Shown piece after piece: positions 8,501-27,931 of a stretch of 64,000 nt of DNA. The number at the start of each line of letters is the position of its first letter. The first letter of the stretch is position 1. The notes beneath the pieces are model-generated. The model saw only the letters and a program-made list of their open reading frames with translations. It was not told the origin of the DNA and ran no database searches. Origin of the DNA: Sphingopyxis sp. PET50 (lineage in GTDB: Bacteria > Pseudomonadota > Alphaproteobacteria > Sphingomonadales > Sphingomonadaceae). Location: positions 1,922,001-1,986,000 of the forward strand of contig NZ_CP104207.1 in the NCBI RefSeq assembly GCF_025244705.1, read 5' to 3'. The position numbers and the translations under genes are program-made.

Positions 8501-8597
8501 GCGATTCTCCCTGCCAAAAGCCTTGCTTGACAATGGAATGTTTTTTAGGAAAGAAGAAACCGATTTGGTTATTGCACAAATTGACGATGAGGTCGCC

Positions 8598-11478: not shown

Positions 11479-13091
11479 TTAAATATTGATCGACGTCGGA
11501 CGCGCGGTCCGCAGCCAGTGCGCCACGAACATGCGCGTCACGGTGACGGCGGTGAAAACGCTGGTGACGATGCCGATCGTCAGCACGACCGCAAAGCCCT
11601 TGATCGGTCCGGTGCCGAACCAGAACATCAGCGCCGCGGCGATGACATTGGTGACGTTGGCGTCGAAAATCGCGCGGCTCGCTTCGCTATAGCCCAGCTC
11701 GACCGCCTGGAATACGCGCCTGCCGCGTTTCAATTCCTCGCGTATTCGCTCGTTGATCAGCACGTTGGCGTCGACGGCGGCGCCGATCGTCAGCACGAAG
11801 CCGGCGATGCCCGGCAGGGTCAGCGTCGCGTTGAATGCCGCCATGATCGCGATGATCAGGAACACGTTGAACGCCAGCGCGATATTCGCATAGACGCCGA
11901 AGCGGCCATAGACGACGAGCATCAGAGCCAGCACCGACGCGGTGGCGATGATCCCGGCGATCACGCCCTTGCGGATCGAATCGGCGCCGAGTTCGGGGGT
12001 GACGGTGCGTTCCTCGACGACGTCCATCTTCACCGGCAGCGAACCCGAACGCAGCGCGATCGCCAGTGCGTTGGCGGTCTGGACCGTGAAATTACCCGAA
12101 ATCTGGGCGCTGCCGCCCAGGATCGGCTCGTTGATCGACGGGGCCGACAGCACCTTGCCGTCGAGCACCATCGCGAAACGCTTGCCGACATTCTGGCCGG
12201 TGACGCGCGCGAAAGTGTTCGATCCCGCCGCGTCGAAACGGATGCTGACCGCGGGCAGGTTCGACTGGTTGAAATCCTGCCGCGCGTCGATCAGCTGGTC
12301 GCCGCTGATCATCACCTGGCGGCGCAGCACCTCGCCCGGCACGCCATAGCCCTCGCCTTCGGCATAGGGCACGAACTCGCTGCCGACCGGGACATTGCCC
12401 GCCAGCGCGGCATTCACGTCGCCATTGGGATCGACCATGCGGAATTCCAGCCGCGCGGTCTTGCCGATCAGTTCCTTCAGCGCCGCCGGGTCCTGCAGAC
12501 CGGGGACCTGCACGACGATGCGGTCATTGCCTTCGCGGATGATCGTCGGTTCGCGCGTGCCCAGGCTGTTGACGCGCGTATCGACGATGTCGCGTGCCGC
12601 ATCCATCGCGCGCGCGGTCGCCTGGTCGCGGTCGAAGCGGCGGTCAGGGTCAGGACGATGCGCGTGGTGTCGACGACATCGATGCGCCAGTCGCGCTGCC
12701 CGGTCATGCTCGCGCCCTGGGTTTCCTTGAACAGCCGGTCGCGGGCGTCGTCGAGCTGCGCCTGGTCGCGGATCAGAAAGCTGATCGTGTTGCCCGACGC
12801 CTTGAAATCGCCGATCGCGATATCGTCGTCGGGACCGCTCTCGCCCCGCATCGCGGCGCGCACGGTCTTTTCCATATTGGTCAGCTGCGTCTTGTTAAGG
12901 TCGGCAAGGTCGGCTTCGAGCAGCAAATGACTGCCGCCCGCCAGATCGAGGCCCAGATTGACCTTGATCTGCGCAAGGCCCGGCAGGCTGTCGAACGTCT
13001 TCTGCGGCAGAAAGGTGGGGATGGCAAAGAGGATACCGAGCAGCAGGATGATGCTGATGCCGATGGTTTTCCAGCGCGGGAAATCGAGCAT
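11479..13091 (-). CDS. secD: Protein translocase subunit SecD (apparent frameshift)
   Basis: 537 residues after correction. It opens MLDFPRWKTIGISIILLLG and has the D1 motif GLDLAGGSHLLLEAD. A large periplasmic domain follows, with DTRVNSLGTREPTI and RIVVQVPGLQDPAALKELIG. The C-terminal membrane half contains GAAVDANVLINERIREEL and FDANVTNVIAA. The two halves are in different frames around 12636-12645, and one added base is needed (the other breaks in this window mostly need one removed). It is the middle gene of the operon, 51 bp after yajC. Confidence 0.9.
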
Positions 13092-15072: not shown

Positions 15073-16052
15073 TCACGGTTTCAGCACGACCTTGCCCACC
15101 ACCTCGCGCCGTTCGAGCATCGCAAAGCCCTCGCGCCAGTCGGCAAGGTCGAGCGCGGCGTGGACATGCGGGCGGATCCGCCCCTCGGCCGCCAGCGCGT
15201 CGATCGCCGCGATATTCTCGGCACCCCGCTCGGGAAACCGATGTAGCCATATTCGCCCGCCCGCACCCCAACGACCGAGAATCCCTTGATCAACGGTATG
15301 TTGACCGACAGCTCGGGAATCCGGCCCGACGCGAAGCCGATCACCAGCAGGCGCCCGCCAAAGGCGATGCACCGCGTCGATTCGTCGAACACATCCCCGC
15401 CGACGGGATCGAAGATCACGTCGGCGCCCTGTCCGCCCATCAGCGCCTTCACCTCGTCCCGAAAGCCCGGGTCGGGCGCGATCACCGCATCAGGCGCATA
15501 GAGACCCGTCAGCATCGCGCGCTTTTCGGCGCTGCTCGCCGCCGCGATCACGCGTGCGCCCAGCGCCCGCGCCAGATCGACGGTCGCCAGCCCGACGCCG
15601 CCGGCCGCGCCATGCACCAGCACCCATTCCCCCGCCTGCACCTGCCCGCGCCGGACGAGCGCTACCCAGGCGGTGAGATAGGCGACGCCATAGGCCGCGC
15701 CCTCTTCCCACGACAGGCGCTCAGGCTTCGCGCGCAGGCTCGCCGCGGGCACCACGGCATATTCGGCCATTGCGCCGAACCGGTTGCCGCCGATCACCCG
15801 GTCGCCGGGCCGCCAGCCCGACACGCCCTCGCCCAGCGCATCGACCTCGCCCGCAAACTCCAGCCCCGGCACGAACGGCAGGTCGGGCTTCAACTGATAG
15901 GCGCCGCGCGTCATCAGCAGGTCGGGGAAATTCACCGCCGCGGCGCGGATGCGCACCCGCACCTCGCCCGGCCCCGGCGCCGGAATCGCCAGATCGGTCA
16001 GCGCGCAGCCGCCATGATTCTCCGCCAGTTCGCTGACCAAAAGCGCCTTCAT
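15073..16052 (-). CDS. NADPH:quinone oxidoreductase family (MDR/zinc-free alcohol dehydrogenase type; apparent frameshift)
   Basis: 326 residues after correction. N-terminal GroES-like domain: AAAVNFPDLLMTRGAYQLKP and LPFVPGLEFAGEVDALGEGV. Nucleotide-binding domain: WVLVHGAAGGVGLATVDLAR, with the AAGGVG motif of quinone oxidoreductases. The structural-zinc cysteines are absent, which fits the QOR branch. The last 55 residues, with GAENIAAIDALAAEGRIRPH and FAMLERREVVGKVVLKP, lie in another frame. The break is near 15240, beside CCCCGCTCGGG, and one missing base would repair it. It diverges from the lysis cassette. Confidence 0.84.
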
Positions 16053-16123
16053 GGAGAAAATCCTTTCCTATTTTATTCCTATATGGTTCGTTTTAGCTGT
16101 TCAACCAACCGGAGACGCGAATC

Positions 16124-16699
16124 ATGCCCACACCGAACAACCGATCACTCGACGCCGACACATTGATCGACGCCGTCATCGACCGCGAAGGCGGTTATGT
16201 AAACCATCCCGCCGACCGCGGCGGTCCGACCCGCTGGGGGATCACCGAAGCCGTCGCGCGCGCCGAGGGCTATGGCGGCGCGATGCGCGACCTGCCGCGC
16301 GGCGAGGCCGAAGCAATCTACCGCCGCCTCTATTGGCAGCGCCCCGCCTATGACCAGGTCGCGCGCCGCGCCCCCGCGATCGCCGCCGAATTGTTCGATA
16401 CCGGCGTCAACATGGGCACCGGCACCGCGACCGGCTTTCTCCAGCGCGCGCTCAACGCGCTCAACCGCGCCGCGCGCGACTATCCCGACATCGCGGTCGA
16501 CCGCGCGATCGGCCCGCGCACCCTGTCGGCGCTCGACGCCCTTCTCCGCGTTCGCGGCGCCGGCGGCGAGACGGTGCTGCTGCGCGCGATGGAGGCGCTG
16601 CAGGGCGAACGCTACATCGCGCTCGCCGAACGCCGCCCGAGCCAGGAGGCCTTTCTCTACGGCTGGCTCGCCAATCGCATCGGACAGAGCGACGCGTGA
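16124..16699 (+). CDS. Glycoside hydrolase family 108 endolysin (N-acetylmuramidase), GTA/phage type
   Basis: 191 residues. The N-terminal motif DREGGYVNHPADRGGPTRWG carries the catalytic glutamate (Glu22) of GH108 muramidases. The C-terminal IAVDRAIGPRTLSALDALL resembles the peptidoglycan-binding segment found in this family (PG_binding_3). There is no obvious signal peptide, so release depends on the holin encoded 53 bp downstream. In Rhodobacter capsulatus an endolysin and holin pair of the same types, placed away from the structural genes, releases the gene transfer agent. The AT-rich 71-bp region upstream, shared with the divergent oxidoreductase, has GGAG eleven bases before the ATG. 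Confidence 0.85.
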   Translation: MPTPNNRSLDADTLIDAVIDREGGYVNHPADRGGPTRWGITEAVARAEGYGGAMRDLPRGEAEAIYRRLYWQRPAYDQVARRAPAIAAELFDTGVNMGTGTATGFLQRALNALNRAARDYPDIAVDRAIGPRTLSALDALLRVRGAGGETVLLRAMEALQGERYIALAERRPSQEAFLYGWLANRIGQSDA

Positions 16700-16752
16700 A
16701 AGCCCGTCATTGGGCTGAAATTTACTGAACTTTGACATCATGGAGCATATCA

Positions 16753-17166
16753 ATGAGCATCATCGAAGGCCTGATCGGCCCCATCGCCAAGCTGATCGAC
16801 AAGATCATCCCCGACCCCGAAGCGCGCGACCGCGCGAAACTCGAACTGCTCAAGCTGGAGGGCAGCCAGGAAATGGAGGCGATCCGGACGCAGATGACCG
16901 CGATCGTCGCCGAGGCGAACAGCGCCGACCCCTGGACCAGCCGCGCGCGGCCGAGCTTTCTCTACGTGATGTATGCGCTGCTGCTCTGGGCGATCCCGAT
17001 GGGCCTGATCGCCGCCGCCCGGCCCGACATGGCCAAGGGCATCGCCGAAGGCATGAACGCCTATCTCGCCGGCATCCCGGAATCGCTCTACGCGCTCTTC
17101 GGCACCGGCTATCTGGGCTACACCGCCGCGCGGGCATGGGGGAAAGCCAAGGGGGTCGAGGCCTGA
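16753..17166 (+). CDS. Three-TM holin of the gene-transfer-agent release type
   Basis: 137 residues, starting at the ATG at 16753 with TGGAG eight bases upstream (an earlier in-frame ATG at 16732 lacks a site). An amphipathic N-terminus, GLIGPIAKLIDKIIPDPEAR, and a charged helix with LKLEGSQEMEAIRTQMTAIV lead to DPWTSRARPSFLYVMYALLL and a second hydrophobic stretch near LFGTGYLGYTAARAWGK. This is the GTA_holin_3TM pattern. It would permeabilise the inner membrane to let the GH108 enzyme reach the wall. The two genes form a lysis unit with no structural phage genes nearby. Confidence 0.85.
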   Translation: MSIIEGLIGPIAKLIDKIIPDPEARDRAKLELLKLEGSQEMEAIRTQMTAIVAEANSADPWTSRARPSFLYVMYALLLWAIPMGLIAAARPDMAKGIAEGMNAYLAGIPESLYALFGTGYLGYTAARAWGKAKGVEA

Positions 17167-17395: not shown

Positions 17396-17448
17396 TCTCT
17401 GCGCTCTCTGCGCTCTCTGCGCTCTCTGCGCTCTCTGCGCTCTCTGCG
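17396..17448. repeat. 9-bp tandem repeat, unit CTCTCTGCG, about six copies
   Basis: Five exact copies of CTCTCTGCG, preceded by one partial copy, run from 17396 to 17448. It starts seven bases after the long inverted repeat and ends 22 bp before the SRPBCC stop codon. The inverse word CGCAGAG recurs in the left part of the neighbouring inverted repeat. Confidence 0.92.
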
Positions 17449-17470
17449 CGAATCCAGCTCGAAACCGGCG

Positions 17471-25471: not shown

Positions 25472-27909
25472 CACAAGGCCCGCTGGGCAGCGGTGTCGAG
25501 CGCCGCCGACACGGCCTCGGTCAACTGCGCGACCGAAAAGGGTTTGGGCAGAAAGGACACATGATCAATATCGATCGACTGGCGCAATTGTTCCTCGGCA
25601 TATCCCGACATGAACAGGACGGGCAGGTCCGGCCGCTTGGCGCGCAGCACGCGGACCATCGCGGGGCCGTCCATCGTCGGCATCATCACGTCGGTCAGGA
25701 TCAGGTCGACCTTGTCCATCTGGCCGAAGCGCTCGACCCCCTCCTCGCCCTGCGACGCGGTGACGACGGTATAGCCCGCGCGGGTCAGCGCCCGCTCGGC
25801 GACCGCGCGGACCATGTCCTCGTCCTCGACGAGCAGGATGGTGCCGGTGCCCCACTGGCTCTTCTTCGGCTTCGGCGGCGCGGCCGCCGCGGGCGCGTCC
25901 TTGTCGGCGCGGTGGACGGGAAGATAGATGGTGAAGCTGGCTCCCTCGCCCGGCTTGCTGTCGGCGAAGATGAAGCCCGCCGACTGCTTGATGATGCCGT
26001 AGACGGTCGAGAGGCCGAGCCCGGTGCCCTTGCCGACATCCTTGGTGGTGAAGAAAGGTTCGAAAATCTTGGGCAGCACCTCGGCGGGAATGCCGCCGCC
26101 GGTGTCGCTGACCTTGAGCGCGCTATAGTCGGCGGGCGGCATGATATCGCTGCCCATTGCGCGGACTTCGGCGGCGCTGACCGGATAGGTCTCCATCGTC
26201 AGCGTGCCGTGCCCGCCCATCGCATCGCGCGCATTGACCGCGAGGTTGATGATGACCTGTTCGAGCTGGCCGGGGTCGGCGCGCACCGCGCCCAGCCCGC
26301 GCCCGTGACGCACCGACAATTGCACCGATTCGCCGATCAGCCGCTTGAGCAGGTGCGACACCTCCGAAATCACGTCGGGCAGTTGCAATATCTGCGGGCG
26401 CAAAGTCTGCTGACGCGAGAAGGCCAGCAACTGCCGGGTCAGGCTGGCCGCGCGATTGGCGTTGCTGCGAATCTGCTGGATATCGTCATAATCGCTGTCG
26501 CCCGGCGTGTGCCGCATGAGCATCAGGTCGCAACTGCCGAGCACCGCGGTCAGGATATTGTTGAAGTCGTGCGCGACGCCGCCCGCGAGCTGGCCGACCG
26601 CCTGCATCTTCGACGCCTGCGCGACCTGGCGCTTCAACCGCGATTCCTCGCTCGAATCCTTGAGGCTCAGCAGCACCGCCGCCTCGCCCAGCCCGCGCAC
26701 CCCGACGACGCGCATCGACACCGGCTCGTCGCCCTGCCCCGCCAGCCGGATCGACAGGTCGCCGCCGACCTGCTGCCCGCTGCTGTGGCGGCGGATCATG
26801 TCGGCGAGCGGACCCTTGTCCTCGCTCACCACGATATCGCCGGGGTAGCGCGGCATCCGCTCCTCCGACAGACCGGCGGCGCGAACGAAGGCGCGGTTCA
26901 TGTAGAGGAAGCGCCCGTCGCGATCGACCATCGCGAGCCCGAAGGGCAGCAGCGACAGCAAGGTCTCGACATAGGTCTGCGCGGTGCCGCGGTCGGCCGC
27001 GCCCATCTCCTCGTCGATCAAGGCCAGCAGCATCGGGCCATGGCTGTCGGCAGGGATCAGCGGAATCTGGAGCAGGCGGACCGGCGTCGCCCGCTCGCCC
27101 TCGCGCCCGAAATAGAGCGTTCCCGCATCGTCGAGCCGGAGCAGGGGCGCAACGTCGCGGCCCGCATAATGCGCCTGGTCGCTCTCCCCCAGCGCGCGCA
27201 GCAGAAACGCCTGGTTGGCGACGCGCAGCCGCCCCTCGGCATTGACCAGCGCCGCCATGATCCCCGCCTGGCCCAGCGTGCGCCCGGCGGGCCCGTCCAG
27301 ATGGCGGCTGATTTCCGCGACGAGGTCGAGCCGCTCGACCGCCGAGAAGCGCCACACCAGATAATCTTCGGCCAGCCCCGAACGGATCACCTGCGCACGC
27401 AGATGGAGCGCGCCGACCGCCAGTTCGTGGACACTGCCCTCGCCGTCGCGCCACGCGGTCCGTCCGGCGTTTTTCAGGAGCTCGGCCCCGCGCCCCTCGA
27501 GCGGCAGCCCCGGCGGGGTGACGAAGCCGCCCATCCAGGTCGCGAACAGGTCATTGGCGCAGACGAGGCGCCCGGCGCGGTCGGTCACCGCGACGGCGAT
27601 ATCGTCATGATCGACCGCCGTGCGCAACATCGTCCAGTCGGGCAAGGCCGCCTCGCCCGCGACCGCCGCGGGGAACAGCCGCCGCAGCAGGATCACCGCC
27701 GCGCAGGCGATCGCCAAACCGCCGAGAAAACCCGCCGCGAGCACCGCATCGCGAGTCGCCCAGAACAGGAGGCCGACCGACAGGATCGCGAGTCCGCCGA
27801 GCAGCGCCGCGTCGACGCGCGACAGGCCCGCGGGAACCATCGCGACCGCGCCGGAACCCGCCCCCCTGCCGATATCGGAATCAGCGGAAGGCAGGCTCGT
27901 CGCGGTCAA
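25471..27909 (-). CDS. cckA: Hybrid sensor histidine kinase CckA
   Basis: 812 residues. Two N-terminal membrane helices (about 34-50 and 56-76) are followed by PAS-like regions (about 95-200 and 310-420). The HisKA motif is [20 protein letters not shown] with His447. The ATPase domain has [14 protein letters not shown] and [14 protein letters not shown], and the C-terminal receiver has the phosphoacceptor Asp740 in [13 protein letters not shown]. This order is that of CckA, which sends phosphate through ChpT to CtrA and CpdR to control cell cycle or motility. The first start is TTG at 27909; an ATG at 27840 is an alternative that keeps both helices. chpT is 14 kb away in this window. Confidence 0.93.
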
Positions 27910-27931
27910 TGGCTGAGACTCTCGCTAGGCG

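Follow-up and report, generated by a model that had tools for sequence, protein, structure and literature searches.

The question raised by two adjoining lysis genes in Sphingopyxis sp. PET50, an endolysin followed by a holin in a 64,000-nt stretch of the genome (the window), is whether they serve to release a gene transfer agent (GTA), as the first-pass annotation proposed, or belong to the host or to a former prophage. The gene types assigned to the pair at 16124-17166 were borne out by Pfam and PHROG matches and by intact reading frames (Table 1). In profile searches, the endolysin passes the curated cut-off of PF05838 (Glyco_hydro_108; 93 bits, cut-off 21.2), carries a C-terminal peptidoglycan-binding domain (PF09374, PG_binding_3; 66.9 bits, cut-off 24.6) and matches the PHROG endolysin family phrog_315 at 2.6e-46. 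The PF11351 match of the holin (112.7 bits, cut-off 24.8) spans positions 2-122 of 123 in the profile, and is thus full length, with a further match to the PHROG holin family phrog_3427 at 4.6e-26. The score of the endolysin against NF040573 (holin-associated N-acetylmuramidase), 61.9 bits, falls under the cut-off of 240 for that model. Its N-terminus is not hydrophobic (best 19-residue mean hydropathy of 0.16 within the first 40 residues), as expected for a holin-dependent endolysin. For the holin, the mechanical call of an ORF start at a TTG codon (16732) is probably too early. Both reading frames are intact despite the frame breaks seen in adjoining genes of the assembly, and the pair constitutes the sole PF05838 match and the sole PF11351 match of the genome, which consists of one 3.80-Mb contig and is estimated to be 87% complete. 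The endolysin matched 484 phage records and the holin 15, and neither GH108 nor PF11351 alone is therefore diagnostic of a GTA; the description of the pair as a GTA-type lysis module is thus right as to gene types, without the diagnostic value that it implied. Directly downstream of the holin lies a short tandem repeat of CTCTCTGCG units (17396-17450). CckA, ChpT and LexA had also been named as relevant to this locus, and a hybrid histidine-kinase ORF at 25474-27924, detected by motif scan, is the sole find related to any of them.

Table 1. Coordinates of the lysis genes, the candidate regulator gene and their promoter elements within the 64,000-nt window.
Feature	Position	Strand	Basis or remark
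GH108 endolysin, N-acetylmuramidase type, 191 aa	16124..16699	+	PF05838, PF09374, phrog_315, hydropathy
GTA_holin_3TM holin, 137 aa from ATG	16753..17166	+	PF11351, phrog_3427
Conserved lysis-promoter motif CCTTTCCTA...CCTATATGGTTC	16062..16089	+	62 nt 5' of endolysin start codon
Candidate operator, TAACC-N5-GGTTA type (here ATTCC-TATAT-GGTTC)	16075..16089	+	14.6 bits, GTA-only matrix
XRE/CI-like regulator gene, in-frame first 146 of ~186 residues	8598..9035	+	HTH families (G122 protein), predicted fold
Candidate operator AAACCGATTTGGTTA in XRE promoter	8557..8571	+	sequence match

The prediction of a domesticated GTA in this sphingomonad is supported by a whole-genome search with g12, g15 and capsid markers, which located an RcGTA-like head-tail cluster at approximately 90-107 kb of the single contig (G000:C1), with the capsid gene (PF05065) at 94.3 kb, g12 (PF09343) at 102.5 kb and g15 (PF23666) at 106.1 kb; these three lie outside the window, which had been described as free of phage structural genes, and a second capsid match was counted besides the one listed at 94.3 kb. 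This 20-kb stretch encodes terminase, portal, capsid, tail tube, gp10, g12, g13 and g15 domains in an RcGTA-like order that is the same in the GTA cluster of a relative (G122), and its NlpC/P60 match lies below the cut-off for that domain. The lysis pair is located 1.83 Mb from the cluster in the same genome, in agreement with the annotated separation of lysis and structural genes. PF13547 (GTA_TIM) was dropped as a GTA marker, given that it has no match in this genome, where g12, g15 and the capsid do find the cluster, and that 0 of 199 family genomes score over its cut-off (one sub-threshold match). In G122 (L028:4753-7074), g12 has 774 aa and joins a non-contractile tail-sheath N-domain to its TIM barrel and to DUF2460, where RcGTA g12 is a protein of about 200 aa with DUF2460 only. 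The GTA tail in the Sphingomonadaceae may carry a sheath.

The GTA genes of this genome contain seven frame breaks in 10.2 kb, including terL and g12. Their interpretation as decay was rejected on the grounds of a similar break density around the regulator and lysis locus (5 breaks in 3.6 kb and 4 in 11.1 kb, secD included), in a comparison where some of the ORFs are antisense. Since the density is about equal elsewhere in the window, frame breaks are uninformative on GTA decay. Near the lysis pair, secD (12477-12606) and a quinone-oxidoreductase-like gene (15081-16052) are frame-shifted in the assembly, probably through sequencing errors.

In Rhodobacter capsulatus, rcc00555 and rcc00556 likewise encode an endolysin (lysozyme) and then a holin away from the structural cluster, a likeness established by gene type, order and location from descriptions. 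Disruption of rcc00555 lowers gene transfer and leaves particles trapped (excerpts of PMC3423380), and both genes are named as RcGTA genes in the available part of PMC8601537. Phage GH108 endolysins are also similar to the Sphingopyxis protein, reaching 68% identity across 93% of its length in phage records, but most of the Sphingopyxis-group loci that were read differ from phages in placing the endolysin beside secD-yajC and a chromosomal regulator.

The first-pass annotation's reading of the pair as a lysis module is supported, and its strongest support comes from an element that had not been foreseen, a candidate operator shared by the lysis and GTA promoters. A T[TG]TCCTACA-N3/4-AACC-N5-GGTTA motif is found about 60 nt upstream of the start codon of the lysis operon in 54 of 61 loci, as scored by a matrix fitted on those 61 loci themselves. 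Its position is the same whether the first gene is an endolysin or a holin, in a scan where some start codons are misplaced (L049, L054, L058, L060 and others). Of 27 Sphingopyxis-group loci, 24 preserve the motif exactly, and the spaced lysis pattern has a single match in the PET50 genome, at 16066-16088. Upstream of terL, a GTA promoter (TTGACATCGTCACGCT) is present in 38 of the 43 GTA loci scanned (a 44th, L032, is truncated at the cluster start and was left out), two of the 38, that of PET50 among them, with low scores. A TAACC-N5-GG element begins 21-23 nt 5' of TTGACA in 37 of these 38 promoters, only 20 of which have an operator within two mismatches of TAACC-N5-GGTTA; the only perfect TAACC-W5-GGTTA of the PET50 genome lies in its own GTA promoter, at 89,435.

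A matrix derived from the 38 GTA operators only reaches at least 10 bits in 50 of the 61 lysis promoters, as against 12 of 610 shuffled sequences, in which dinucleotides are preserved only approximately, and 4 of 550 random windows. Among other promoters of the lysis loci, 4 of 96 attain this score, three of them (QOR) in a divergent intergenic region common with the endolysin. The full lysis matrix was discarded as the common element because it misses most GTA promoters, and the operator part alone is shared. Bare motif counts are no higher than those of reversed-pattern controls (8 versus 8 places) and fall below them in many genomes, and the spaced pattern yields 48 places versus 35 for its reversed control; the operator signal lies in the location of the sites and hardly in their number. 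Such locations suggest that the lysis operon and the GTA cluster are under common control. Two GTA promoters stand apart. After its -35 box, that of PET50 (L027:1436-1500) differs from those of genus neighbors and contains an inverted repeat (GATGTAGA...TTCTACATC), an oddity that could be genuine or reflect an error of the assembly. In G061, a well-conserved GTA-type promoter with the operator and TTGACATCGTGACGCT (L172:2316; G061:C1:75815) occurs in a genome with no g12, g15 or capsid match, and is probably the fossil of a lost GTA cluster.

The 48 spaced-pattern places come from a set of 24 genomes, and 20 of them are lysis promoters by comparison with holin and GH108 coordinates, one for each of the 20 genomes that have any match. 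Among the 28 non-lysis places, 27 were read, and 18 of these 27 precede a gp1-like ORF, compared to 8 of 270 control stretches taken from loci that include GTA clusters. The terminase small subunit family phrog_4044 was matched by two in-cluster and three dispersed gp1 proteins among those scanned, and gp1 is the small terminase of RcGTA (available text of PMC6854486). Chance-like sites occur among the remaining nine places. From this distribution of sites we infer that packaging, structure and lysis may form one regulon. In G158, a small ORF with a lysis-type operator (L328; G158:C1:380831), some 30-40 kb from the GTA cluster, is a possible accessory GTA gene.

A candidate for the protein that reads this operator is encoded in the window by the XRE gene, the remainder of which, past residue 146, lies in other frames of the assembly. 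The encoded protein shares 81-91% identity with its counterparts at 49 Sphingopyxis-group loci, and the gene is present in 191 of 199 genomes, whether or not a GTA is present. Its promoter contains, besides the operator, an inverted CTTTCCTA. As modelled for S. microcysteis (pLDDT 86.6, pTM 0.62), the protein combines an HTH with a predicted C-terminal domain like that of LexA and lambda CI repressors. Foldseek matches to 7jvt_D (1.3e-7) and 3bdn_A (1.2e-4) were obtained for this model, and its HppE matches were set aside because they rest on their HTH; VIA-align gave Z-scores of 10.4 to 3k2z over 107 residues and of 9.8 to 2hnf over 116, in alignments dominated by the HTH domain. Unlike LexA and CI repressors, the XRE protein shows no conserved Ser-Lys dyad: across 44 sequences there is no invariant or near-invariant Lys, and no such Ser after S43, which makes self-cleavage unlikely.

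Binding of the operator by the XRE protein is suggested by the placement of the sites. With the GTA-operator matrix, 58 of 60 XRE upstream stretches (from 60 of 80 loci) score at least 10 bits, as would be the case for an autoregulated protein. Among the matches listed, which cover 150 of the 191 genomes, 59 of 79 same-contig genomes have the XRE gene within 40 kb of the holin, and 25 of 64 have it within 40 kb of the GTA g15; in 84 of the 150 it is near one of the two loci, lysis or GTA, and never near both. Inherited synteny alone may account for the linkage to the holin. Both the operator upstream of XRE and the proximity of the gene to lysis or GTA loci speak against an alternative that is compatible with a lysis module and that we doubt while taking it seriously, namely that the operator co-regulates GTA and lysis genes through a GafA/GafY-like activator or CtrA and not through XRE. 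TAACC resembles a CtrA half-site, which would favor this alternative, and the half-sites of the operator are inverted, unlike those of CtrA sites, which would not. The position of the operator in the GTA promoter, upstream of the -35 box, is that of an activator, while in the lysis promoter it falls within the putative spacer. In R. capsulatus, moreover, the lysis genes are controlled by GafA and CtrA: GafA reportedly binds at the endolysin promoter, and endolysin expression requires CtrA (excerpts of PMC6363796). In Sphingopyxis the candidate operator is a different one and is accompanied by an XRE gene. The control proposed here finds a parallel in Caulobacter crescentus, where, according to the accessible sections of PMC13236601, the XRE repressor CdxB acts on GTA activation and lysis genes. 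The same sections describe CdxB as a protein of 132 aa with a dimerization domain that reaches the GTA via gafYZ and not through the cluster promoter, and attribute CcGTA lysis to LypABC, holin-endolysin homologues not having been found in Caulobacter.

The holin was detected in 147 of the 199 family genomes, GH108 in 67 and the adjacent pair in 41. Holin presence is associated, in tests that ignore phylogeny, both with any GTA marker (both in 120 genomes, holin only in 27, GTA only in 27 and neither in 25; p=7.8e-5) and with g12 alone (104, 43, 24 and 28, respectively; p=0.0023). A GTA marker is likewise present in 38 of the 41 genomes with an adjacent pair (p=0.0013, phylogeny again ignored), and no enrichment of the pair is seen against the strict presence of g12 and g15 (29 of 41; p=0.28). 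For these counts and those of XRE proximity, G155, G177, G031 and G120, and later G001, were left out of g12 as phage-like or partial, G001, G155, G177 and G031 were left out of g15, and GTA presence in G018 and G151 was added by capsid score. In 21 genomes g12 and g15 are present and the PF11351 holin is absent.

The surroundings of the holin were compared in 61 lysis loci, comprising the window and 60 of the other 146 holin-positive genomes. Upstream of the holin, secD or yajC is found in 37 of the 61, and downstream, aroQ or accB in 21; one locus scan left minus-strand loci unturned, and blanks in it do not denote absences. The pair lies about 6.5-9.4 kb past the XRE regulator in 27 of 40 Sphingopyxis-group loci, these being the loci, out of 49, whose downstream flank reaches 9.3 kb or more or in which the pair is in view; in the other 13 the pair is farther away or absent. 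Occurrence in 41 family genomes and this synteny dispose of the concern that the pair might be a remnant confined to one strain. The holin is single-copy in nearly all holin-positive genomes, and purifying selection is strong, the median dN/dS over 28 sequences being 0.059 in the holin and 0.171 in the endolysin.

These distributions bear on the proposal that the host employs the pair, or at any rate the holin, for lysis, secretion or programmed death, as a module not specific to the GTA and only secondarily linked to it, a proposal that we consider improbable. On the one hand, 27 of the 52 genomes free of any GTA marker keep the holin, as do 22 of 28 GTA-negative genomes that have a congener positive for both GTA and holin, a set that includes some incomplete assemblies, and 106 of the 147 holins have no GH108 neighbor. 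Holin dN/dS in GTA-minus/plus pairs, furthermore, resembles that of plus/plus pairs, with no visible relaxation of selection. On the other hand, the adjacent pair occurs almost always with a GTA marker (38 of 41 genomes), and the operator of the GTA promoter recurs in the lysis promoter and elsewhere mostly upstream of gp1-like genes. Recent loss of the GTA, or a second function of the holin, would explain the holins found without a GTA. The notion that the cassette is a leftover of a decayed prophage with no present function, which the carriage of GH108 endolysins (484 records) and PF11351 holins (15) by phages might invite, is highly implausible and at odds with what selection and synteny already show, given a neighborhood that is constant across genera and in 27 of 40 Sphingopyxis-group loci, the near-universal single copy, strong purifying selection and a conserved lysis promoter.

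With a probability of roughly three in four, we assign the pair to a vertically inherited RcGTA-like GTA as its lysis module, encoded at a distance of 1.8 Mb from the head-tail cluster. In the mechanism that we propose, the CI/LexA-like XRE protein, devoid of a conserved Ser/Lys pair, would bind the operator and jointly repress packaging, structure, lysis and its own gene, and lifting of this repression would start the GTA programme. The holin would then open the inner membrane, the leaderless GH108 muramidase would cross the holin opening and cut the peptidoglycan, and GTA particles would leave the lysed cell. More tentatively, at somewhat less than even odds, the sphingomonad GTA can be viewed as a repressor regulon, in which a non-cleavable, domesticated CI/LexA-like protein acting on one operator (TAACC-N5-GGTTA) would keep in check, as a single switch, the head-tail cluster, the lysis operon encoded elsewhere and several scattered small-terminase-like genes, along with its own gene, the holin being put to a second use after GTA loss.

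GTA clusters in the Sphingomonadales are already known; the portions of the literature examined describe no release module or control element for them, and an earlier report of the TAACC-N5-GGTTA operator was not found in those portions. If the repressor regulon is real, it would contrast with the activation by GafA/GafYZ that operates in Rhodobacter and Caulobacter. The operator would provide a family-wide handle, predicting which genes join the GTA programme, and the XRE gene would become one named candidate whose loss could switch a silent GTA on. Through the operator and the XRE gene, GTA function in the Sphingomonadales would become directly testable.
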